A DNA stretch of 52,294 nucleotides, taken from Actinomycetes bacterium (lineage in GTDB: Bacteria > Actinomycetota > Acidimicrobiia > Acidimicrobiales > SZUA-35). Location of the stretch: contig JAJRQY010000170.1 of assembly GCA_024280015.1 (NCBI GenBank), positions 1-52,294 of the forward strand, in the 5' to 3' direction. This document shows, piece after piece, positions 15,656-26,928 of this stretch. The translations under genes and the position numbers were made by a program. The notes under the pieces were generated by a model. It saw nothing but the letters and a program-made list of their open reading frames with translations, ran no database searches and was not told the DNA's origin. The number at the start of each line of letters is the position of its first letter. The stretch's first letter is position 1.

Positions 15656-16603
15656 ATGCTGGTTATGCAGCGTCCTACGGTGGAACAGCTTGATGATGGC
15701 GAATCCAGCCATGGTCAGTTCGCCATCGGTCCACTCGAGCCCGGCTTTGGCCATACGCTCGGTAATTCGCTCCGTCGCACATTGCTTTCGTCGATTCCTG
15801 GCGCGGCAATCACTTCGGTTCGTTTCGACGATGCTCTTCATGAGTTCGACACCCTTGCCGGTGCGATCGAAGATGTTGTTGACATCATCTTGAACCTCAA
15901 AGACATTGTGGTGACGTCGGAGTCCGATGAGCCCGTGACCCTGCGTCTCGATGTTCGTGGACCGGGCGACGTATCTGCCGGGGACATTTCTTGCCCGTCT
16001 GAGGTCGAAATCCTTAACGGTGACATCCACTTGGCAACACTTGATGCCAAGGGCCGTCTCGCTATTGACCTCACGGTCGAGCGTGGACGGGGTTGGACCT
16101 CTTCGGCCCAGCAAGCCCAAAGTGACTCGGCTCCGATCGGGATCATTCCCATCGACGCCATCTTCAGCCCGATCCGTCGGGTGTCCCTCTTAGTCGAGCC
16201 GACTCGTGTCGAGATGAGCACCGACTTTGATCGTGTCGTCATCGATATTGAGACCGATGGATCGATCACCCCTCGTGATGCACTGGCTTCGGCCGGAGCA
16301 ACCTTGCGAGGACTTATCCAGCTCGTCGAAGAGATGAGCGATGAGCCAGAAGGCCTCACCCTGGGCGAAGCCCCGGCTGCTGCATCTGGTTCCCCAGATC
16401 TTGATCTTCCCATTGAAGACCTCGATCTTTCTGAGCGTCCACGCAACTGCCTCAAGCGGGCTCAGGTCAACAGCATTGGTGAGCTTCTCACCAAGACTGA
16501 AGACGACCTGCTCGCCATCACCAACTTCGGGCAGAAGTCGCTGGACGAAGTTATTGTCAAGCTCGATGAGCGTGGCCTTTCGCTACGCGGCTCTAGGAAC
16601 TAG
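15656..16603 (+). CDS. rpoA: RNA polymerase alpha subunit
   Basis: 315 residues from ATG 15656, supported by AAGGA six bases upstream; the ATG at 15641 would overlap that site. The N-terminal assembly domain shows [31 protein letters not shown], and the C-terminal domain (about 248-310) has [21 protein letters not shown] and the [10 protein letters not shown] helix that contacts UP-element DNA and activators. A Glu/Ser-rich linker joins them. It is flanked by rpsD and rplQ as in nearly all bacteria. Confidence 0.97.
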
Positions 16604-16605
16604 TC

Positions 16606-16959
16606 ATGCCTGCAACTCCTCGCAAGGCGACCCGCTTCGGCGGCTCGGCTTCACACCAGAAACTCATGATGGCCAACCTGGTTGCTTCGCTGGTCGCAGC
16701 CGAAGGCATCACGACCACCGAGGCGAAGGCCAAGGCACTTCGCCCGGTCGCCGAGAAGATGATCACCAAGGCCCGCAAGGGTGGTTTGCACAACTTCCGC
16801 CAGGTGTTGTCTTACTTGGGTGACGTCGAGATGACCACCAAACTCTTTGATGAGGTCGGCCCTCGCTATGCCGAGCGTCCGGGTGGATACACCCGCATCT
16901 TGAAGCTGGGTCCACGGCCGGGCGACAACGCCCCGATGGCCCGGATCGAACTGGTCTAG
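16606..16959 (+). CDS. rplQ: 50S ribosomal protein L17
   Basis: 117 residues, the plain form without extension. It has the conserved [19 protein letters not shown] start region (family pattern R-x-x-A-H-R-x-A-L-x-x-N-L), [18 protein letters not shown], and ends [26 protein letters not shown]17 lies near the tunnel exit. In some actinobacteria L17 carries the extra sunset domain that L22 carries here; this one does not. It ends the superoperon, with truA 20 bases later. Confidence 0.97.
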
Positions 16960-16978
16960 TCGGATCGGATGATGGAGG

Positions 16979-17827
16979 GTGCAAACCCCGTCCTTGTTTG
17001 ATCAAGAACCTGAGGAGCCTTCCGGCTCCGAACAGACAAGCGGGCCTTCGGGTCCGCTTGTCCGCGTCAGGCTGAGCATTGCCTATGACGGCACCGACTT
17101 TCGTGGCCTTGCACCAAATCCTGGTGTACGCACTGTTGTTGGTGAGCTGGTCAAGGTGCTAACTCCGTACCTGCGCCATGAGCCCGACATTGTGATGTCG
17201 GGGCGGACCGACGCAGGAGTTCATGCCAGTGGGCAAATCCTGTCCTTCGATGCCCCAGTCGCCTGGCTTGGTTCGGGGCGGGAGGGGACGGATCGGCTGC
17301 AGAAGATGATCAACTCGCGGCTAGCGCCCGAGATTGTGGCTCTGGACGTACAAGTTGTAGATCCGGAGTTCAGCGCCCGCTTTGATGCTGTTGGCCGCCG
17401 CTATCGGTACCTGGTTCTGAATCAACCCGTGGCAGATCCTCTGTTAGCCCGCTCGACCTGGCATGTTTCTGAGCCGCTGGACTTGGCTTCAATGCGGTTG
17501 GCTTGTGATCCGATCATTGGTGAACACGACTTTTCGTCCTTTTGTCGCCGGCCGAAGGTGAAGGTGGGAGAGGAACCCGTGTCTTTGGAGCGCCGTATTG
17601 ATGTGGCAACATGGCACGATGTTGGAGATGGCTTGCTGGAGTTCCGGATCGAGGGTTCGGCTTTCTGCCACCAAATGGTTCGCAGCCTGGTCGGATTCCA
17701 CGTTGCCGTCGGTAAAGGCAAGCGCTCGGCTGGCGAACTGAGGTCAGTCCTGGCCGCACGAGACCGCCAAGCCGCCGAACAACCAGCCCCACCCCACGGC
17801 CTCAACCTCATTGAAGTCCTCTACTAG
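16979..17827 (+). CDS. truA: tRNA pseudouridine(38-40) synthase
   Basis: 282 residues if started at GTG 16979; that codon abuts GGAGG, so TTG 16994 is an alternative start. The fold begins VRVRLSIAYDGTDFRGLAPNPGVRTV, and the catalytic aspartate is in SGRTDAGVHASGQ. Further landmarks are FSARFDAVGRRYRYLV and the FCHQMVRSLVG segment near the C-terminus. The enzyme isomerises uridines 38-40 of the anticodon stem. Position after rplQ is the usual actinobacterial order. Confidence 0.95.
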   Translation: MQTPSLFDQEPEEPSGSEQTSGPSGPLVRVRLSIAYDGTDFRGLAPNPGVRTVVGELVKVLTPYLRHEPDIVMSGRTDAGVHASGQILSFDAPVAWLGSGREGTDRLQKMINSRLAPEIVALDVQVVDPEFSARFDAVGRRYRYLVLNQPVADPLLARSTWHVSEPLDLASMRLACDPIIGEHDFSSFCRRPKVKVGEEPVSLERRIDVATWHDVGDGLLEFRIEGSAFCHQMVRSLVGFHVAVGKGKRSAGELRSVLAARDRQAAEQPAPPHGLNLIEVLY

Positions 17828-17883
17828 TCCAGTAAGTACGCGTTGAGACGGCCTGGTAATGAGATCACCTAGGGGATAGTTGG

Positions 17884-17912
17884 TTGGTGCTGGTAGATCC
17901 GCGCCGTATCAT
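17884..17912 (+). promoter_or_regulatory. Probable promoter of rplM-rpsI
   Basis: TTGGTG (17884-17889), a spacer of exactly 17 bases and TATCAT (17907-17912). The 13-mer GGTTGGTGCTGGT at 17882-17894 is identical to that at the infA promoter, and both spacers contain CCGCG. The predicted start near 17919 leaves a leader of about 120 nt containing a small stem CTGTC/GACAG (17964-17979). In E. coli the rplM-rpsI operon has a regulated leader. Confidence 0.65.
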
Positions 17913-18041
17913 TGCTGGTCGGCTATGGAGCTTTGCTTTCGTATTCGCCGATCGCCCGAAACGCTGTCGACTGAGACAGTGCGCCTGGCCCCTCTTGCAG
18001 GTCTCTGTAAGAACTCGAACACTGATGTGAGCAGGATTGTT

Positions 18042-18497
18042 GTGAAGACGTACACCCCCAAGAAATCCGAGATTGAGCGCGATTGGTTCGTGGTTGATGC
18101 GGAGGGCCTCACCCTTGGCCGTATGTCGACCGAGATCGCCCGCATCCTGCGAGGCAAGCACAAGCCAACCTTCGCTACCCACATGGACATGGGCGATCAC
18201 GTCATTGTCATCAATGCAGCCAAGGTTGTTCTTACCGCCGACAAGGGCGAGAAGAAGATGGTGCATCATCACTCCGGTTACCCGGGTGGTCTCACCAGCC
18301 GCACTTACGAAGAGTCAATGAACCGCAAGCCAGCCGACACGGTCCGCAAGACCATCACCGGCATGCTGCCAAAAACCCGTCTGGGTAACCAGATGGCAAC
18401 CAAGTTAAAGGTCTATGCCGGTGACAGTCACCCGCACGAGGCCCAATTGCCCAAGACCCTCGACATTCCCGGCGCTCGCCGTGAGGTGAAATCATGA
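18042..18497 (+). CDS. rplM: 50S ribosomal protein L13
   Basis: 151 residues from GTG 18042. An open frame extends upstream to 17880, but the family start is [21 protein letters not shown], and the upstream part contains the promoter. Conserved features: [27 protein letters not shown] and the [21 protein letters not shown] block. L13 is an early 23S rRNA assembly protein. It overlaps rpsI by four bases and is translationally coupled to it. Confidence 0.96.
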
Positions 18498-18880
18498 CCA
18501 CGATTCAGACCACTGGCCGCCGCAAGCAAGCAATTGCTCGGGTTCGCATGAGTAACGGTGAAGGAAAGATCACGGCCAATGGCCGTGAGTTCGCCGACTA
18601 TTTCCCGTCTGCGGTTCATCGCAAGCTCATCACTGAGCCCCTCCGAATTGTCGAAGGTGAAGAGATCTACGACATTGACGTCACCTTGAACGGCGGCGGC
18701 CTCTCTGGCCAAGCCGGTGCTTTCCGTCTCGGAATCGCTCGTGCCCTCATCGAGATTGATCTTGAGCGCCGCCCTGCCCTCAAGACCGAAGGCCTCCTTA
18801 CCCGAGATCCTCGTAAGAAGGAATCCAAGAAGTACGGCCTGAAGAAGGCTCGTAAGGCTCCTCAGTACTCAAAGCGCTAA
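18494..18880 (+). CDS. rpsI: 30S ribosomal protein S9
   Basis: 128 residues. It shows [24 protein letters not shown] at the N-terminus, [23 protein letters not shown] and the C-terminal [23 protein letters not shown], whose terminal lysine-arginine touches the P-site tRNA anticodon. Its ATG lies within the rplM end. glmM follows after 35 bases. Confidence 0.97.
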
Positions 18881-18915
18881 TCCTGTCCAGCCAAACCAAG
18901 GGCTCGGAGTCCAAC

Positions 18916-20250
18916 ATGTTCCCAAGTTTCGGGACCGACGGCGTCCGAGGATTGGCCAACAAAGACATTACTCCCGACGTCGCTCAGGCCCTTGGCCGGG
19001 CGGCGGCGGAGTTTTTGGGTGGCAGTCGAGTCGTCATTGGTCGAGACACCCGCCGGTCTGGCCAGATGCTCGAAGCAGGCTTGGTGGCCGGATACACCGC
19101 GGCCGGTGTCGACGTTGAACTGCTAGGTGTCGTACCAACGCCGACCGTTTCTTGGGTCGCCAGCAAGGCCGGCATTCCCGGTGCCATGATCTCGGCCTCC
19201 CACAATCCCTTCGCCGACAACGGGATCAAGCTATTCGCTGCTGGCGGGCTCAAGCTCAGCGATGAGGTCGAGGCTGCGATCCAGGCCAGGTTCCATGAGA
19301 TTCTGGCCAACCCCCACCAAGAGGGGCCGACCGGCGACAACGTTGGTGTGCTTACCCCATCGTTGGGAAATCAGGGTTGGATTGATTCGGTCGTTGGAAC
19401 CGTTGCCCCGGACGCCTTTCGAGGACTTGACATTGTCCTTGACTGTGCCAACGGTTCCGCCTTCGAACTTGGTCCGCAGATTTTTCGTGCTCTTGGCGCA
19501 GAAGTGTCGACTATCGGGGTTGAGCCCGACGGAATCAATATCAATGCTGAATGTGGGTCAACCAGTCCTGCCCGTCTGCAGGCTGCCGTAGTGGCCAAGA
19601 ACGCTGACCTTGGCTTGGCTTTTGATGGCGATGGTGATCGCCTGGTTGCCGTCGGGCCTCGGGGAGAGACCATTAGTGGTGACCACATCCTTGCCATCCT
19701 GGCTCAGGATTGGAGCAACACCGGTCAACTGGCCAACAACACCGTTGTCGTCACCGTTATGAGCAATCTCGGATTCCACCTGGCAATGGCCAAGTCCAAT
19801 ATCACTGTGGTGCAGACCGGAGTCGGTGATCGCTACGTACTTGAGGCCCTGAACGAGGGCGGCCATTCGCTTGGAGGTGAGCAGTCCGGCCATGTCATCT
19901 GCCGAGACCTCGCTTCAACCGGGGACGGCATCCTGGCTGGGGTCCAGCTGGTTGATGCCATCGTTCGCTCCAAGTCGACCCTGTCGGGTCTCGCAGCCAA
20001 CGCCATGACCACGGTTCCTCAGATCCTGCACAACATCCGCTTGCCCCAGCAAGACCCGACGCTGGTTGAACGCATGGCTGGCGCGGTAGCCAAGGCGGAA
20101 GCGGACATGGGCAGCAATGGACGGGTACTGGTCCGAGCTAGCGGAACTGAACCACTCCTGCGAGTTATGGTGGAACACTTGGACGACGACGCGGCGCAGG
20201 CAATTTGTGCTCAACTCGTAGCCGAAGCGGAACTACTCATCAGTACCTAA
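18916..20250 (+). CDS. glmM: Phosphoglucosamine mutase
   Basis: 444 residues, the standard size. It opens with FGTDGVRG, has the phosphoserine loop ISASHNP (catalytic Ser about residue 95), the Mg-binding DGDGDR (237-242) and the sugar-phosphate-binding RASGTEPLLRVMVE near the C-terminus. The enzyme interconverts glucosamine-6-phosphate and glucosamine-1-phosphate on the way to UDP-GlcNAc for peptidoglycan. It follows rpsI and precedes the GlmS-like gene, which makes its substrate. Confidence 0.97.
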   Translation: MFPSFGTDGVRGLANKDITPDVAQALGRAAAEFLGGSRVVIGRDTRRSGQMLEAGLVAGYTAAGVDVELLGVVPTPTVSWVASKAGIPGAMISASHNPFADNGIKLFAAGGLKLSDEVEAAIQARFHEILANPHQEGPTGDNVGVLTPSLGNQGWIDSVVGTVAPDAFRGLDIVLDCANGSAFELGPQIFRALGAEVSTIGVEPDGININAECGSTSPARLQAAVVAKNADLGLAFDGDGDRLVAVGPRGETISGDHILAILAQDWSNTGQLANNTVVVTVMSNLGFHLAMAKSNITVVQTGVGDRYVLEALNEGGHSLGGEQSGHVICRDLASTGDGILAGVQLVDAIVRSKSTLSGLAANAMTTVPQILHNIRLPQQDPTLVERMAGAVAKAEADMGSNGRVLVRASGTEPLLRVMVEHLDDDAAQAICAQLVAEAELLIST

Positions 20251-20380
20251 CCAGCCCAGCAGAATTGGGTGACGAATCATTCCTACAGCGAACTCTCGCC
20301 TGATCCGATGTTGATTCAGAACCAAAACAGACCAACGCAAACCTGACATATCAAGACCCGATCTGAGGAGCCCTCAACTC

Positions 20381-23300
20381 GTGTGCGGAATCATTGCAAT
20401 CGTTCGTCGGCGGACCGACCGTGCGACCCCATCCAGTGCCAGCATCCTGACCGGACTGGATACTGCCGTTGACCTCTTTCCGGCCCCGGATTCAGGCGAT
20501 CTAGCCAACAAACTGGGCGAAGTGGCAGACACGGTCTATCGCATCGACCTTGAGCTGCGAGGTGAAGCGGGTCTGCAAGCCATGCTTGTCGACTCCAATC
20601 TGATCCCCGAGATCACCAGCCGCCTGGCCACTGTCGGAACCGGAGTCGCCAAGATCGAAGCGCACCTCGAAGCACACGGTGAGCAAATGACTGGGCTGGA
20701 AGCCATCAACGCGGCCCTGGTTCGAACCAAGGATGCTGTTTGGGCCATCGAGCAAGACCGGATTCGCACGGCGCAGACCGTGGCTGAGCTTGCCGGGGCA
20801 ACCCCTAGCGATGCTGCCGTTGCCGCTTGTTTCTCGATCCAGCAAGCCCTGAGCGCCCTGGACCGGCTCGAAGTCCGCGGCCGAGACAGCGCCGGAGTGC
20901 ATGTGCTGGTTCGCAACCATGGCCTTGACCTGGAGTCTGCGGCGGTGAAGGCCTTGCTGGAGAGCCGTGGCCGTGGAGGCCTGTTTACTCATGGCGCTGT
21001 TCGTACTCCAGACGGCTATCTCAGCTTCATCTACAAGGCTGCGGCTGAAATTGGTGAGCTCGGTGACAATACAGCGGCCATGCGTAGCGCCATGGTCGAG
21101 GATGAACTTCTTCACCTGGCCTTGATGAACGAGAATGCTGAAGCCACCATCCTGGGTCACACCCGGTGGGCCTCGGTCGGCATCATCAGCGAACCCAATG
21201 CTCACCCCGTAAACAGCGACGAACTCGAAGCCAAGTATGACGCTGATCAGGGACGCTACGTCACTGCAACCCTCAATGGTGACGTCGATAACTATCCCGA
21301 CCTGATTGCCGCCGACGGCCTACGAATCGCTACAGAGATCACTACTGACGCCAAGGTCATCCCAACCCTGGTCTCGCGGGGCCTCAGCGAGGGACATGAC
21401 CTGGACGAATCGGTACGCCGTGCCGTCTCCCAGTTCGAAGGTTCCGTCGCCATTGGCATCAGTTCAACCGAAGCCCCAGACGACATCCATGTCTGCCTTC
21501 GAGGCAGTGGCCAAGGAGTCTTTATTGGTCAGGCCGAAGACGCCTTCATCATTGCCTCGGAGCCCTACGGTGTGGTTGAAGACGCCACTTCCTATATCCG
21601 TATGGACGGCGAGACACCGGCTGACCCGGACAACCCCATTGTCAGTCAGGGCCAGATCATCCGTTTGAGTGGCGCTCAAGCGGGCACCGAGCAGGGCGTT
21701 TCTCGCTATTCCTATGACGGAACTCTGCTGCCTGTTGCCGACGGCGAGTGGAAAGATCCTGAGGTCACCACCCGTGACATTGACCGCGGCGATGCCCCTC
21801 ATTTCCTGTTGAAAGAGATTAGCGAATCGCCGCTTTCCTTTGCCAAGACCTTGCGTGGTCGCCTGGTCAACGGTCAGAAGGGTTTAGAAGTCCGGTTGCC
21901 CGATGAGACCATCTCGGCCGACATCGCCACCTACCTCGCTTCTGGTCATGTGAAGCGAGTGTTGGTAATTGGCCAAGGAACCGCAGCGGTTGCCGGCCAG
22001 GCAGTCTCGGCCGCCTTCGAATCGGCACTGGCTGGTTCGGGCATCACGGTTGGCTACAACACCGCAACCGAGCTTTCTGGATTCCATCTGGAAGACGACA
22101 TGTCTCATGTGTTGATCGTGGCGGTGTCCCAATCGGGGACTACCACCGACACCAACCGCACCGTTGACCTCGTTCGAGGGCGCGGCGCAACTGTCCTAGG
22201 AATCGTGAATCGACGGGGCAGCGATCTGGTCGACAAGGCCGACGGTGTGCTCTACACCAGCGACGGTCGCGATGTCGAGATGAGCGTCGCCTCAACCAAA
22301 GCGTTCTACGCCCAAATCGCTGCTGGTTTCTTGCTAGCCGAAGGTGTCGCCAATCTGATTCCTGACACCGCCACAGACTCCTCGGACCGGCAAGTCCTGC
22401 TGCAAGCGCTGCGAGACCTGCCCGAAGCTATGGTCGCCACCCTGGCTAAGCGCAGCGAGATCGCAGCGGTGGCTGATCGTCACTTCTTGAGCCGCCGCTA
22501 TTGGGCCATGGTCGGTAGTGGTACCAACCTGATTGCTGCTCGGGAGCTTCGCATCAAGCTGTCCGAGCTTTGCTATAAGGCCATTGCCTGTGACGTCATC
22601 GAAGACAAGAAACACATCGACCTCTCTTCGGAGCCGCTCATCCTGATTTGCGCCGCCGGACTCGTTGGATCGAATGCTGATGACGTTGCCAAAGAAGTTG
22701 CAATCTTCCGTGCCCACAAAGCGGCACCGATTGTGATTGCCACCGAAGACGAGAATCGCTTCAACGCCGCACTGGATGTGATCTCGGTTCCTGAGGTTGA
22801 TCCCCGTTTGGCCTTCGTACTTTCAACCATTGTCGGGCACCTCTTCGGCTATGAAGCGGCGCTTGCCATCGACGCATCGGCGCACCCGCTTCGCGAAGCC
22901 CGAGCGGTCATCGAACGATTCGTTGGTGCCGAGGACAACTGGTTCGCAGACTTCTCCCAAGAAATTCGACCGCTCGCCAGCCAGTTCTTTGACGGCCTTC
23001 GCTTGGGTCGCTACAACGGGCACCTCGAGGCTGGCACGGCTGTTCGCCTTGGTTCCTTGTTCCGATTCGCCGTCCGCTCCACGCCTCTTGAGTCATTCCA
23101 GATTGAGTACGGCAAGGTTGGTACCCCCGGTGTTGTTGCCGAAGATCTGGCCAACGCTTTGACTTCTGCCATCGAAGAGCTGACCCGTCCGGTTGATGCC
23201 ATCAAGCACCAGGCCAAGACAGTTACCGTTGGCATCTCGCGGGCAGATGAGAGCCTGCTTCAGTCCGACCTGATTCGTTCGATTCTTGACTCTGGCTGCC

Positions 23301-23815
23301 CACGAGACCGGATGAGCTACCGCACGTTGCGAGGCATTGCCGCCCTTGCCCCCGCCATTGATGATGTCATCGGCTTTACCCGCTATGCCATCGACGGGTC
23401 AGTTAGCGCTGGTGCTCGTATCAGTGTTACCGATCGGGGAGGGGTGTCTACCGGCATCGCTTCTCGGACGGACAAGGACCCGACTCTGCGGGGGAACAAG
23501 CACCGGGTCGCGGTCGAGCGAGAGGTGCTTGTCACGGTTGGTTCTGACAGTCGTGTCGTCCTGATGGTTCCCGAGGTCAAGAACGGCCAGACCACCGGTG
23601 TCACCCTGTGCCACGTCACCCTGAATGATGACCTTGGAGCAACAACGGCCCGCTCGATCCTGCAGGGGTATCGCAATCGGTATCGCCAGCTGGTTGATGT
23701 CGTCACTGAGGGTCAGCCAAGCTTCCGAGAGGACATCTTGGCCGACGTGCCAACGGTTGAGTTGCTAACGGCTCCAATCTCTGAGGTTGCGGCTCGCTGG
23801 ACGAGCGGTGCCTGA
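20381..23815 (+). CDS. glmS: Enlarged GlmS-like glutamine amidotransferase/SIS protein
   Basis: 1144 residues from GTG 20381 with GAGGAG upstream; ordinary GlmS has about 610. The mature N-terminus would be Cys2 (MCGIIAIV), the class II amidotransferase nucleophile. About 140 residues rich in helices separate it from RGRDSAGVH (166-), then HTRWASVG (260-), the LNGDVDN oxyanion region and TDAKVIPTL. Two SIS domains follow: SQSGTTTDT at 583-, and a second with SGTNLIAARELRIKLSEL and KKHIDLSSEP (about 711-755). AKTVTVG (945-951) resembles the AKSVTVE end of GlmS with its catalytic lysine, but 193 further residues follow. It probably makes glucosamine-6-phosphate, as the glmM context suggests, but another transaminase or isomerase role is possible. 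Confidence 0.85.
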   Translation: MCGIIAIVRRRTDRATPSSASILTGLDTAVDLFPAPDSGDLANKLGEVADTVYRIDLELRGEAGLQAMLVDSNLIPEITSRLATVGTGVAKIEAHLEAHGEQMTGLEAINAALVRTKDAVWAIEQDRIRTAQTVAELAGATPSDAAVAACFSIQQALSALDRLEVRGRDSAGVHVLVRNHGLDLESAAVKALLESRGRGGLFTHGAVRTPDGYLSFIYKAAAEIGELGDNTAAMRSAMVEDELLHLALMNENAEATILGHTRWASVGIISEPNAHPVNSDELEAKYDADQGRYVTATLNGDVDNYPDLIAADGLRIATEITTDAKVIPTLVSRGLSEGHDLDESVRRAVSQFEGSVAIGISSTEAPDDIHVCLRGSGQGVFIGQAEDAFIIASEPYGVVEDATSYIRMDGETPADPDNPIVSQGQIIRLSGAQAGTEQGVSRYSYDGTLLPVADGEWKDPEVTTRDIDRGDAPHFLLKEISESPLSFAKTLRGRLVNGQKGLEVRLPDETISADIATYLASGHVKRVLVIGQGTAAVAGQAVSAAFESALAGSGITVGYNTATELSGFHLEDDMSHVLIVAVSQSGTTTDTNRTVDLVRGRGATVLGIVNRRGSDLVDKADGVLYTSDGRDVEMSVASTKAFYAQIAAGFLLAEGVANLIPDTATDSSDRQVLLQALRDLPEAMVATLAKRSEIAAVADRHFLSRRYWAMVGSGTNLIAARELRIKLSELCYKAIACDVIEDKKHIDLSSEPLILICAAGLVGSNADDVAKEVAIFRAHKAAPIVIATEDENRFNAALDVISVPEVDPRLAFVLSTIVGHLFGYEAALAIDASAHPLREARAVIERFVGAEDNWFADFSQEIRPLASQFFDGLRLGRYNGHLEAGTAVRLGSLFRFAVRSTPLESFQIEYGKVGTPGVVAEDLANALTSAIEELTRPVDAIKHQAKTVTVGISRADESLLQSDLIRSILDSGCPRDRMSYRTLRGIAALAPAIDDVIGFTRYAIDGSVSAGARISVTDRGGVSTGIASRTDKDPTLRGNKHRVAVEREVLVTVGSDSRVVLMVPEVKNGQTTGVTLCHVTLNDDLGATTARSILQGYRNRYRQLVDVVTEGQPSFREDILADVPTVELLTAPISEVAARWTSGA

Positions 23816-24437
23816 GGTCGATCTCGACAACGAGCTCATCACGCCGTTGGATCGCGCCATCGATCGACTCTGGACTGTCTTTTCTGATCGTGCCAGCCTG
23901 GTGGGAGACCTCCCCGCCGATGCGGTACTGGCCAGAGTGGATGCCACAGCGTCCACTAGCGAGCTTCGCTTCTGCATGCCCCGTCTGGCCGAACTGTTGA
24001 CGACGAACCGGTTGGATGCCGAGCCCGGCTACCGTATTGCTGATCGTCTTCGTGACGCTGACTGGAAGTCCTGGGAACGAGATGAGCGAGTAGCACTGGA
24101 GGAGTTCTTCGATACCTGGTGGCTGCTTACCCGATTTCTGGATGGTGGAGTTCTCCCCGCCAGCGAGGTCCTCGGCATCTTGGTTCACCTCGGGGTGCCC
24201 CTGGTGCGCTGGCTCGGTCCCTGGTTGGAAGACTTCGATGGTCCTCCAGCTCGTCATTTCGCTGACATGATTCTTGGCGGGATGCACACCCCGGCCTGGA
24301 CATCAGCTCCGGACGAACGAGGCCAGGTGCTTGGCTGGGCAGCGTCTGAAGCCTGCGTGTTTGGTATTGCCCTTGTTGGCGGCATCCATCTGCCAGATGA
24401 TCAGCTCTCCGATGTCTTGGACAAGCTCATCCAATGA
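23808..24437 (+). CDS. Hypothetical protein between glmS and alr
   Basis: 209 residues from GTG 23808, overlapping the glmS end by eight bases; TTG 23787 is possible but sits deeper in glmS. I do not recognise the family. The sequence is acidic and mostly helical, rich in Trp and Leu (WKSWERDERVALEEFFDTWWLLTRF; LGILVHLGVPLVRWLGPWLEDF), and ends DDQLSDVLDKLIQ. No signal peptide, clear membrane helix or motif is evident. The overlap implies co-translation with the GlmS-like protein. In many actinobacteria nnrD or acpS occupies this place before alr; neither resembles this protein. Confidence 0.75.
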   Translation: MPEVDLDNELITPLDRAIDRLWTVFSDRASLVGDLPADAVLARVDATASTSELRFCMPRLAELLTTNRLDAEPGYRIADRLRDADWKSWERDERVALEEFFDTWWLLTRFLDGGVLPASEVLGILVHLGVPLVRWLGPWLEDFDGPPARHFADMILGGMHTPAWTSAPDERGQVLGWAASEACVFGIALVGGIHLPDDQLSDVLDKLIQ

Positions 24438-24537
24438 GTCCAGCACTGTTCACCCGGTTTGGGCCTTCTGGCACCGCTGGAGCATGCACCAGCGTGCTCT
24501 ACCGGAGCCAGAACGGTGTTTTGGAGGGTCGAGCGCG

Positions 24538-25692
24538 GTGAGCCGGTCTTGGTTGGAGATTGACGAGTCGGCTATCACGCGTAACACCGCGACCATGCTC
24601 GCCCAAGCGGGTGGAGCCAGACTCTGCGCGGTGGTGAAGGCCAATGGCTATGGCCACGGTGCCGCCCCGTCGGCTCGTGCGGCGTTGGCTGGGGGAGCGA
24701 CCGCCCTAGCGGTGGCGCAGGTTGGTGAAGGGATTCAGCTTCGCCACGATCAAATCGACGCTCCGATCTGGATCCTGTCCCAACCGGAAACTCGAGAGAT
24801 GACCGCAGTCGTTACTTTTGGTCTCGAGCCGAGTCTGCAAGATCAGAACGGCATCGAAGCCATGGTGGACGCGCTGGCATCGGAGAATCGAATGGCCGCG
24901 AGGGCGTCTCTTGGCGTGAAACCGCCAGCAATCGTTCATGTGTGTGTGGATACTGGCATGCATCGAAGCGGTGCACAGCCCGAAGACGTCACCGATCTGG
25001 TTGGACAGATTGACGCCGCTGATGGTCTGACGTTGGGTTCGGTCTGGACGCATTGCGCTTCGGCGGACGAGCCGGAGAACCCGCTCACCAATGAACAGAT
25101 GGACCAGTTCGACCGAGTGTTGCTGGCGTTGGATCAAGCCAGCCTCACGCCTCCTTTGGTTCATGCCGCCAATTCAGGAGGCACGCTTGCCTTTCCTCGA
25201 ACCCATCGAGATATTGTGCGCTGTGGCATATCGCTCTACGGCCTAAGCCCCAGCCCTGAACTGGCTGGACGAGTCGATTTGGAGCCTGCGATGCGTTGGC
25301 TGAGCCGGGTATCTCTGGTGAAGCAGCTTCGAGCCGGTGACCGGGTGAGCTATGGCCAGAGCGGAGTCGTTGATCGAGACACCATGGTGGCAACCTTGCC
25401 GGTTGGATATGCCGATGGGTACCGCCGGTTGACGTGGACTGGTCCTGGTTCAGTTCTGATTGGCGGCAAACGTCGGCGTATCCTGGGAGTGGTGACCATG
25501 GACCAGATGGTGGTCGAGGTCGGCGATGACTCGGTAGCCGTTGGAGATGAGGTGGTTCTCCTCGGTCAACAAGTTGATGAACGCATCACCGCACAGGACC
25601 TCGCCCAATGGCAGGGAACAATCAACTACGAGATTGTTTGCAGCCCAACTCTGCGAGTTACCAAGACCTACCCCATCAGCGACGGACACTGA
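24538..25692 (+). CDS. alr: Alanine racemase
   Basis: 384 residues from GTG 24538, ten bases after GGAGGG; the frame is open from 24274, but homology begins SRSWLEIDESAITRN. The PLP lysine is K34 in VVKANGYGHG, and the second catalytic base is Y272 in RVSYGQSGVVD. VCVDTGMHRSG, HAANSGG and PVGYADGYRR are also conserved. The enzyme supplies D-alanine for peptidoglycan. It follows the amino-sugar genes by about 100 bases, consistent with a cell-wall precursor cluster. Confidence 0.96.
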   Translation: MSRSWLEIDESAITRNTATMLAQAGGARLCAVVKANGYGHGAAPSARAALAGGATALAVAQVGEGIQLRHDQIDAPIWILSQPETREMTAVVTFGLEPSLQDQNGIEAMVDALASENRMAARASLGVKPPAIVHVCVDTGMHRSGAQPEDVTDLVGQIDAADGLTLGSVWTHCASADEPENPLTNEQMDQFDRVLLALDQASLTPPLVHAANSGGTLAFPRTHRDIVRCGISLYGLSPSPELAGRVDLEPAMRWLSRVSLVKQLRAGDRVSYGQSGVVDRDTMVATLPVGYADGYRRLTWTGPGSVLIGGKRRRILGVVTMDQMVVEVGDDSVAVGDEVVLLGQQVDERITAQDLAQWQGTINYEIVCSPTLRVTKTYPISDGH

Positions 25693-25812
25693 ACAGCAGG
25701 CGGGTACGAGTTGGCAGCTAGTAGCCCGCTGGGATTGCGAGCCGTCAGGTATTGATCAGTGAAGTAGTCTCTCGATATCGACAATCAGACGTCTGATGCT
25801 TCGGTATCGCCA

Positions 25813-26928
25813 ATGCGAATCCTTCTCGTTGAACCCTGGATGAGCGGCTCCCATGCTCAGTGGGCCGAAGGGTACGCGCGGGCCAGTACCCATGTTGTTT
25901 CGATCGTCAGCCTTCCGGCCGGGCCATGGCGGTGGAGGCTGCGAGCCGGAGCGGGCCCCCTCGCTGACAAGATCAGCAAATGGGTAGTCACCAACGGAAG
26001 CCCCGACCTGATCCTGCTTTCTGGCCTGGTTGATGGTGCGCAACTATTAGGGCTTGCCCGGCGAAGCCTGCCCAACAACACCCCAGTCGTGGTCTACCAG
26101 CACGAGTCGCAGCTGGTCTATCCAGTGGCAAATGGTCAGGTTGACACCGAGGCGGCTCTACGGAACTGGAGTACCTGGCTGGCAGCGGACAAGGTGCTGT
26201 TCAATAGTGGGTTTCACCGGACGGCGGTCGAGTCCGAGCTCACCATATTTCTGGAGCACCAACCTGAGCAAGACCAGGTGGCATTGCTGGCTTCAGTATT
26301 GGACAAGTTCGATGTCTTGCCGGTAGGAATCGATCTGCCGCCTCTTGTCTCGACCGTTGCCTCGGGCGGTAGGTCTTCGGCTGCTCCTCAGGAGCCTCCG
26401 CTCATTGTCTGGCCCCACCGGTGGGAGCCGGACAAGGATCCGGATGCCTTTGTTCGAGCATTGGCCAAATTGGACCAACACCAATTGGACTTCCGCCTGG
26501 TACTGGCGGGAACCGACTCGATGGTTCCAAGCGACGCTCGACGACGCATCATCGACCGCTGGTCAGACAAGATCGTGGCCATCGGCCCATTTCCTCGGGC
26601 CACCTATGAGGAGCTGTTGATCAGGGCTGACATCGTGGTTAGCTGTGCCAAGCACGACTTCTTCGGTGTCGGTGTTGCCGAAGCGGTGGCTGCCGGGTCT
26701 GTACCGGTACTGCCTGATGCGTTGGCCTATCCCGAACTGATCGATGAGCGGTGGCACGAGGTTTGCCTCTACCAGGCTGGCAGTTTCGGTAGTCGCCTGG
26801 TCGAGGTCGTTGGTTCGGTGGACCAGTACCGCTTGGCTGTTGCTGGCCTCGCAAAATCAATGGAACGATTCGGATGGTCCCACATCGCTCGACGTCTTGA
26901 CCAGCTGCTGGCCAGCCAACTCCGCTAG
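25813..26928 (+). CDS. DUF3524 glycosyltransferase, tRNA-queuosine mannosyltransferase-like
   Basis: 371 residues. The N-terminus EPWMSGSHAQWAEGYA and LPAGPWRWRLRAGA, then VVYQHESQLVYPVANGQ (about 93-109) and VLFNSGFHR match the family of animal GTDC1/QTMAN. The C-terminal GT-B half has WPHRWEPDKDPDAF (from 200) and CAKHDFFGVGVAEAVAAGSVPVLP (K280, H281), the nucleotide-sugar site. Animal QTMAN mannosylates queuosine in tRNA-Asp. Whether this bacterial member acts on tRNA is inference; it lies between alr and the tsa genes, close to other tRNA modification genes. No signal peptide, so cytoplasmic. Confidence 0.85.
   Translation: MRILLVEPWMSGSHAQWAEGYARASTHVVSIVSLPAGPWRWRLRAGAGPLADKISKWVVTNGSPDLILLSGLVDGAQLLGLARRSLPNNTPVVVYQHESQLVYPVANGQVDTEAALRNWSTWLAADKVLFNSGFHRTAVESELTIFLEHQPEQDQVALLASVLDKFDVLPVGIDLPPLVSTVASGGRSSAAPQEPPLIVWPHRWEPDKDPDAFVRALAKLDQHQLDFRLVLAGTDSMVPSDARRRIIDRWSDKIVAIGPFPRATYEELLIRADIVVSCAKHDFFGVGVAEAVAAGSVPVLPDALAYPELIDERWHEVCLYQAGSFGSRLVEVVGSVDQYRLAVAGLAKSMERFGWSHIARRLDQLLASQLR

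Follow-up and report, generated by a model that had tools for sequence, protein, structure and literature searches.

A nearly double-length GlmS-like protein, probably a glucosamine-6-phosphate synthase, belongs to a separate clade found in several bacterial phyla

We analyzed a stretch of 52,294 nucleotides (positions 1 to 52,294 of contig JAJRQY010000170.1, assembly GCA_024280015.1; here, the window) from an Actinomycetes bacterium of the class Acidimicrobiia, which carries an unbroken open frame with a GTG start on the forward strand (20381..23815) encoding a GlmS-like protein of 1144 amino acids. Typical GlmS/GFAT proteins (E. coli GlmS, human GFAT-1) have about 610. This long gene very probably encodes the organism's glucosamine-6-phosphate synthase, as a member of an old "long" GlmS clade that is separate from the canonical enzymes. 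The assignment draws on the retained catalytic residues, the fold of the predicted model, the absence of another copy among those searched for in the genome, the position behind glmM, and the mutual exclusion of long and canonical forms. A first-pass annotation had described a GlmS-like enzyme almost twice the normal size and proposed that it was still the glucosamine-6-phosphate synthase; the size is as described, and the residues, the single copy found, and the glmM slot support the proposal. If the assignment is true, long GlmS catalyzes the first amino-sugar step of the bacterial cell wall, and GlmS is presented as a control point of cell wall synthesis and a drug target in PMC9272926. Long GlmS is undescribed in the open-licence PubMed Central literature that we searched, a scope that leaves subscription papers outside. 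The terms glucosamine, fructose, and SIS domain have no occurrence in the portion of PMC5962788, on Acidimicrobiia marker indels, that was covered.

Architecture and catalytic residues of the long form

A scan of public genome contigs confirmed 162 relatives of the window protein, and the long frame is thus not a product of chance. Later counts use 80 of the 162, many of which match over the full length, with best segments 36-80% identical. Alignment A2 comprises the window protein and 63 of these 80 loci (64 rows), and alignment A1 comprises the window protein and 41 loci. The 17 loci outside A2 lie on truncated contigs or are near duplicates (L012, L017, L021, L023, L028, L032, L033, L037, L039, L040, L044, L057, L062, L064, L070, L077, and L086).

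The long form shares with GlmS/GFAT the order of an N-terminal-Cys GATase domain, SIS1, SIS2, and a lysine loop, as well as the checked catalytic residues, the core fold, and, in the window's class, the glmM neighbor. It differs from them in three inserts and 193 C-terminal residues. Pfam matches in the window protein are to SIS and GATase_6, and the class II amidotransferase and two SIS domains, whose core motifs had all been reported as present, are recovered by Pfam, alignment, and model alike. The codon of Cys2, the counterpart of the GlmS catalytic nucleophile Cys1, lies at 20384..20386, and the residue is invariant in all 64 aligned long forms. The last base of a GAGGAG sequence lies 10 nucleotides upstream of the GTG start.

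The first insert (20411..20809) is a predicted helical bundle that separates the first beta strand from the first GATase helix, with model helices within residues 19-138 and without a canonical GlmS counterpart. Long-form residues 155-156 pair with canonical residues 16-17, leaving about 140 extra residues straight past the Cys2 strand, as first read; this 16/156 anchor has a low local score in the HTRWA-side alignment, yet it is consistent with the profile alignment. The aligned GATase motif RLEVRGRDSAG (20864..20896) precedes the second insert region (20915..21127), which contains the invariant K219, G225, G228, N230, and D241. Canonical residues 16-67 span long-form residues 156-256, a net gain of about 49 residues (about 45 in the first estimate) ahead of HTRWA (21158..21172), which aligns with E. 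coli R73 and W74. SIS1 (residues 475-660; 21803..22360) is placed by Pfam PF01380 and the model, and SIS2 (residues 661-832; 22361..22876) by the model and alignment, with K726, E729, and H745 as the equivalents of E. coli K485, E488, and H504. From the end of SIS2 (about 830) to AKTVTVG (945-951) there are about 100 extra residues, again a predicted helical bundle, which form the third insert at the junction with the catalytic lysine loop (22877..23176; 0 of 100 columns invariant).

The lysine loop ELTRPVDAIKHQAKTVTVGISR (residues 933-954; 23177..23242) contains K946, the equivalent of E. coli K603, and is more conserved than any other stretch of the protein (mean top-residue frequency of 0.90; 11 of 22 columns invariant among the 64 long rows). 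Canonical enzymes end at this loop, as PRNLAK-S/T/V-VTVE, in all 31 extracted sequences, whereas the long form continues for 193 residues past AKTVTVG, and the sizes given by the first-pass annotation for this region hold. The continuation contains a C-terminal alpha/beta domain (residues 955-1144; 23243..23812). The inserts, loop, and C-terminal domain together have 25 invariant columns, of which the loop supplies 11; 8 of the 190 columns of the C-terminal domain are invariant, including Y1002, G1021, G1038, K1040, and D1056. The first-pass annotation recognized the extension behind the lysine loop. Its further statement that such an extension must change the architecture is conjecture; because the loop is so strongly conserved, the active-site role of the old C terminus is probably kept, with a domain added behind it.

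We compared the 64 long forms with 31 canonical GlmS sequences by profile-profile alignment (hhalign), in which long-form residues 156-829 align with canonical residues 17-591 at an E value of 2e-67; an earlier profile alignment with 10 canonical rows gave 6e-62. The same residue occurs in 64/64 long and 31/31 canonical sequences at E. coli positions R73, W74, H86, N98, G99, and D123 on the glutaminase side, among which we take R73, W74, N98, G99, and D123 to be glutaminase residues. The same holds for Q348, S349, V399, K403, K485, E488, and H504. Cys1, A602, and K603 are likewise identical in all long and canonical rows; they lie beyond the hhalign range and were paired by motif. Cys1, Glu488, His504, and Lys603 are the named catalytic residues of GlmS in PMC9272926. 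None of the checked catalytic residues is lost in any of the 64 rows; such a loss would, by the first-pass annotation, have counted against its proposal.

An AlphaFold2 model of the full-length protein, built from the 64-row alignment of the window and fetched loci, has a mean predicted local distance difference test score (pLDDT) of 89.5 and a predicted template modeling score of 0.80. It places an N-terminal nucleophile glutaminase before two SIS domains, in the fold order of GlmS, and the helical insert ahead of the lysine loop spans residues 835-943; residues 947-953, adjoining K946, have a pLDDT below 50. A Foldseek comparison of the full model with the PDB returned 162 matches at an E value of ≤0.001, and the best 50 of the 162 are all GFAT/GlmS (top E value of 9e-29). 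The structure prediction suggested earlier thus matches the core to GFAT/GlmS.

Phylogeny, distribution, and genomic context

The phylogeny of the long form that had been called for places it in a single deep clade. Our isomerase-region tree contains 68 rows: 28 of the 64 long forms, 31 canonical enzymes, and 9 SIS-only proteins. The long forms group in one clade (support of 100/99) whose stem measures 3.87 changes per site, and the 31 canonical rows fall on one side of a weakly supported branch (59/78), with four SIS-only rows beside them. The tree program warns that long branches meet. NagB-II, GlmD, and AgaS-type proteins resemble the long form in their SIS domains; they have no glutaminase domain, the window protein scores 52.6 of 430 bits against the NagB-II model, and the long form stands apart as its own clade in the tree. 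In a quick tree of the long clade, 28 rows assigned to Acidimicrobiia by title or neighborhood group together (one is titled Chloroflexota), and the window protein pairs with L007 at 80% identity.

By record title, the 80 relatives come from Acidimicrobiia, Eremiobacterota, Armatimonadetes, Planctomycetota, Myxococcota and other deltaproteobacteria, Syntrophales, Acidobacteriota, and Aminicenantes, although titles of metagenome-assembled genomes (MAGs) can be wrong. Among 72,556 plasmid records, none covers 80% of the long-GlmS query in one place. As judged from sequence comparison, long GlmS is an old clade spread across several phyla and no peculiarity of one genome.

In many bacteria, the long form appears to take the place of normal GlmS. 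Among 197 genomes of the window's class, each at least 90% complete, canonical GlmS exceeds the cut-off in 112 and the long form is present in 79; 6 have neither, and none has both, when about 45 with both would be expected under independence. The pattern repeats in a second group, the phylum of G241 (the genome of L082, titled Deltaproteobacteria and probably Desulfobacterota), of which 118 genomes were counted, with canonical GlmS in 97, the long form in 14, neither in 7, and both in none (about 11.5 expected). We also assessed the genomes of 48 of the 80 long-form loci, and 46 of them have no canonical GlmS over the cut-off. The genomes with neither form over threshold (G050, G113, G130, G135, G143, and G149 in the class sample; G251, G272, G275, G300, G318, G323, and G325 in the second) may hold further variants or gaps, and fragments of canonical GlmS are visible in G135 and G149.

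The long gene is the only GlmS found in its own genome. The assembly (4.80 Mb, 175 contigs, 96.6% complete) yielded no second canonical glmS with the glmS model, in answer to the search for other copies that had been advised, a normal second copy being the other finding that would have counted against the proposal; one 22.6-bit match on contig C25, covering model positions 289-376 only, was not followed. Two other candidates were set aside: a match on C70 is PurF (505.5 bits; cut-off of 350), and a match on C109 is a 361-amino-acid SIS-only protein for which the GlmD model is best at 114 of 580 bits. The C109 gene adjoins a regulator judged DeoR-like by visual inspection. A search for NagB found none in the genome.

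Immediately upstream of the long gene lies glmM, encoding phosphoglucosamine mutase (18916..20250, forward strand; TIGR01455, 491.4 bits with a cut-off of 447.55), as had been annotated. Canonical glmS of related genomes occupies the same slot, lying behind rpsI and glmM in 16 of 18 regions; the exceptions are L111 and L109, the latter being the canonical copy of Aquihabitans. These regions were chosen by hand, 17 from the 112 canonical class genomes plus the Aquihabitans copy. Of the 33 Acidimicrobiia-type long-form loci that have at least 700 bp upstream, 27 carry glmM no more than 1.3 kb upstream of the long gene. The long form thus often occupies the slot behind glmM that canonical glmS has in relatives.

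Competing explanations and the added domains

Several observations weigh against the reading of the long gene as a glucosamine-6-phosphate synthase with a sensor domain. Long GlmS scores under the NCBIfam cut-offs, with 202.5 of 418.05 bits for TIGR01135 and 222.5 of 381 for NF001484, and is about 27% identical to canonical GlmS in the profile alignment. The counted genomes are kin, and fewer independent events underlie the data than the expected overlaps imply. Both forms occur in 2 of the 48 genomes, the complete genome of Aquihabitans sp. G128 and one "Micrococcales" MAG, and the planctomycete MAG of L075 holds another GlmS-like frame under the cut-off. Among the 33 Acidimicrobiia-type loci, 6 have no glmM within 1.3 kb (L011 and L049 have it at 1.8-2.0 kb, and four show none), and beyond these loci glmM is seen in only 7 of 42 stretches, many of them short contigs. 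For the C-terminal part, Foldseek returned no match at an E value of ≤0.001 among 866, and the GAF, PAS, and CACHE domains in the later rows of a VIA-align comparison have Z scores of 6-7.6, all below 8, a range that may reflect a common arrangement only.

The standard NCBIfam glmS model fails to recognize the long form, which therefore falls outside the curated family. Matches to TIGR01135 and NF001484 span residues 250-830, and in the 197 class genomes TIGR01135 exceeds its cut-off exclusively in genomes without the long form. Pathway calls from the curated model can thus report a gap where none exists. The low score, the deep separate clade with its long stem, and the complete genome with both forms could also mean that the long form is an amidotransferase for a different keto-sugar phosphate, with glucosamine-6-phosphate coming from another enzyme or from salvage. 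Fixed changes near the sugar site point the same way: C300 is Gln (Q532) in 64/64 long forms, and N305 is replaced by Val or Ile. Thr replaces S347 in 18 of the 64. The replacement of S303 by Ala was also considered as such a sign, and it is weakened by the presence of Ala in 7 of the 31 canonical enzymes. We regard a different substrate as unlikely, however, given that Q348, S349, T352, V399, K485, E488, H504, and K603 are kept in all 64 long forms and that no other GlmS and no NagB were found in the window genome. The exclusion of canonical GlmS and the glmM slot would also need a separate explanation, and in Aquihabitans it is the long copy (L011) that sits in the rplM-rpsI-glmM neighborhood, with the canonical copy (L109) elsewhere.

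Takeover of another pathway step, for instance that of the GlmU acetyltransferase half, would explain the size of the long form and finds a parallel in the lack of a full-length GlmU match in the window's order (0/79 genomes, versus 102/118 of the other orders among the 197). The two traits are uncoupled, however: 26/26 canonical-GlmS genomes of the order also have no full-length GlmU, and in other orders it is present in 23 of 27 genomes with the long form. The C-terminal region has no acetyltransferase match in Pfam or among the listed structure matches, a negative that does not extend to the N-terminal insert by itself, and we consider such a takeover very improbable. The GlmU pattern is independent of the kind of GlmS. 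The best 48 listed GlmU matches of the window's order stop near model position 333-362, and the C-terminal acetyltransferase part is either missing or unrecognized there. The window genome has no GlmU match over 42 bits (the best lies in a 195-amino-acid frame), not even to a shortened GlmU, which may be an assembly gap.

It is scarcely credible that a false fusion or a frameshift produced the long frame, or that the gene is decaying. Nothing was found in favor of these readings beyond the origin of the window as one contig of a 175-contig assembly, and against them stand full-length relatives in many lineages, the 25 invariant columns of the added parts and loop, and a confident model.

For a long form acting as glucosamine-6-phosphate synthase, we envisage that Cys2 becomes N terminal once the start Met is removed and would then free ammonia from glutamine. 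The SIS pair would bind fructose-6-phosphate, and isomerization to glucosamine-6-phosphate would fall to K946, E729, and H745, as it does in E. coli. In canonical GlmS the lysine loop is terminal; here it would be held between the helical insert and the putatively PAS/GAF-like C-terminal domain. For that domain an allosteric role would be the likeliest, such that a bound metabolite would shift the lysine loop or the oligomer position, and the helical insert of the glutaminase probably helps to shape the oligomer or the interface with the SIS half.

The C-terminal domain is probably PAS/GAF-like and regulatory, a lead that comes from structure comparison with weak matches. Predicted alone, residues 833-1144 have a pLDDT of 91.9. 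The window's C-terminal part matches nothing in Pfam and has no convincing counterpart among PDB sequences, and eight Pfam families that each appear in 1-4 of the 64 members at E values of 0.01-0.1 were taken as chance. The top Foldseek rows are a PDE5A GAF structure (E value of 3.1e-3) and 7jsr_A (3.5e-3). The first VIA-align row is 7jsr_A residues 174-360 (Z score of 9.3; 156 aligned; root mean square deviation of 4.3), and helical-bundle chains matching the helical insert are interleaved at Z scores of 7.3-8.1; families outside the VIA-align list are not excluded by this comparison. 7JSR is the N-terminal segment of L-GDH180, the large glutamate dehydrogenase of M. smegmatis, a different enzyme with 12% identity to the long-GlmS C-terminal domain. 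This N-terminal segment is described as regulatory in PMC8175468.

The C-terminal domain may thus sense a metabolite. The repeated weak matches to GAF, PAS, and CACHE folds and to a regulatory segment favor this role over a purely structural one, and the invariant Y1002, G1021, G1038, K1040, and D1056 point to a conserved site or contact. It is nevertheless a serious possibility, if a little short of probable, that the extra domains merely provide oligomer contacts and bind no regulator, which would leave the GlmS assignment unaffected. Helical inserts often build interfaces, and the C-terminal domain has few invariant residues (8/190) and no close sensor relative. GlmS regulation is known elsewhere through a ribozyme or feedback by UDP-N-acetylglucosamine, and the added domains offer a natural test of regulation apart from either. 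In the window, positions 16500-26000 contain no glmS ribozyme or other Rfam family at the gathering score.

We tentatively propose a wider scheme that we think plausible but, taken as a whole, rather doubtful. Bacteria would have two ancient types of glucosamine-6-phosphate synthase, of which the long type carries its own PAS/GAF-like metabolite sensor behind the lysine loop and is allosterically controlled, and one branch of the long type would be made as an inactive precursor whose Cys is exposed by removal of a propeptide.

Presequence branch, odd members, and neighboring genes

A conserved presequence of about 40-45 amino acids precedes the catalytic Cys in 18 of the 80 long-form loci (L054, L059, L061, L063, L065-L069, L071, L074, L076, L077, L080, and L082-L085), with a pattern around G-R-D/N-P ... 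S-I/V-I/V-L/F-F-P ... C-G-L/I-A-G. The codon preceding Cys in these loci is never ATG, GTG, or TTG; L071 and L074 have CTG there. Only L068 and L082 have an ATG within 10 codons before Cys, and a GTG or TTG 2-10 codons before it occurs in L054, L065, L069, L076, L083, and L084. PurF and glutamate synthase are class II amidotransferases with a propeptide, and by analogy the presequence is likely a propeptide with a putative cleavage before Cys. The window protein, unlike PurF and glutamate synthase, has no presequence, and its Cys2 directly follows the start codon.

Two further members are unusual. In L028, a low-coverage MAG contig, VSGI replaces MCGI, and the Ser at the expected Cys is either a sequencing error or the mark of a dead copy. 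The second frame in the genome of L075 (L131, 2401 bases) has about 1011 amino acids, the motif MCGVVGLVYG, and GATase and SIS parts, and is perhaps a third kind of GlmS-like protein.

Downstream of long glmS in the window, alr encodes alanine racemase (24475..25692, forward strand; TIGR00492, 295.9 bits with a cut-off of 168). Between the two genes, a 216-amino-acid frame (23787-24437) without an NCBIfam match shares 29 bases with the end of long glmS and has a counterpart in L007 at 67% identity.

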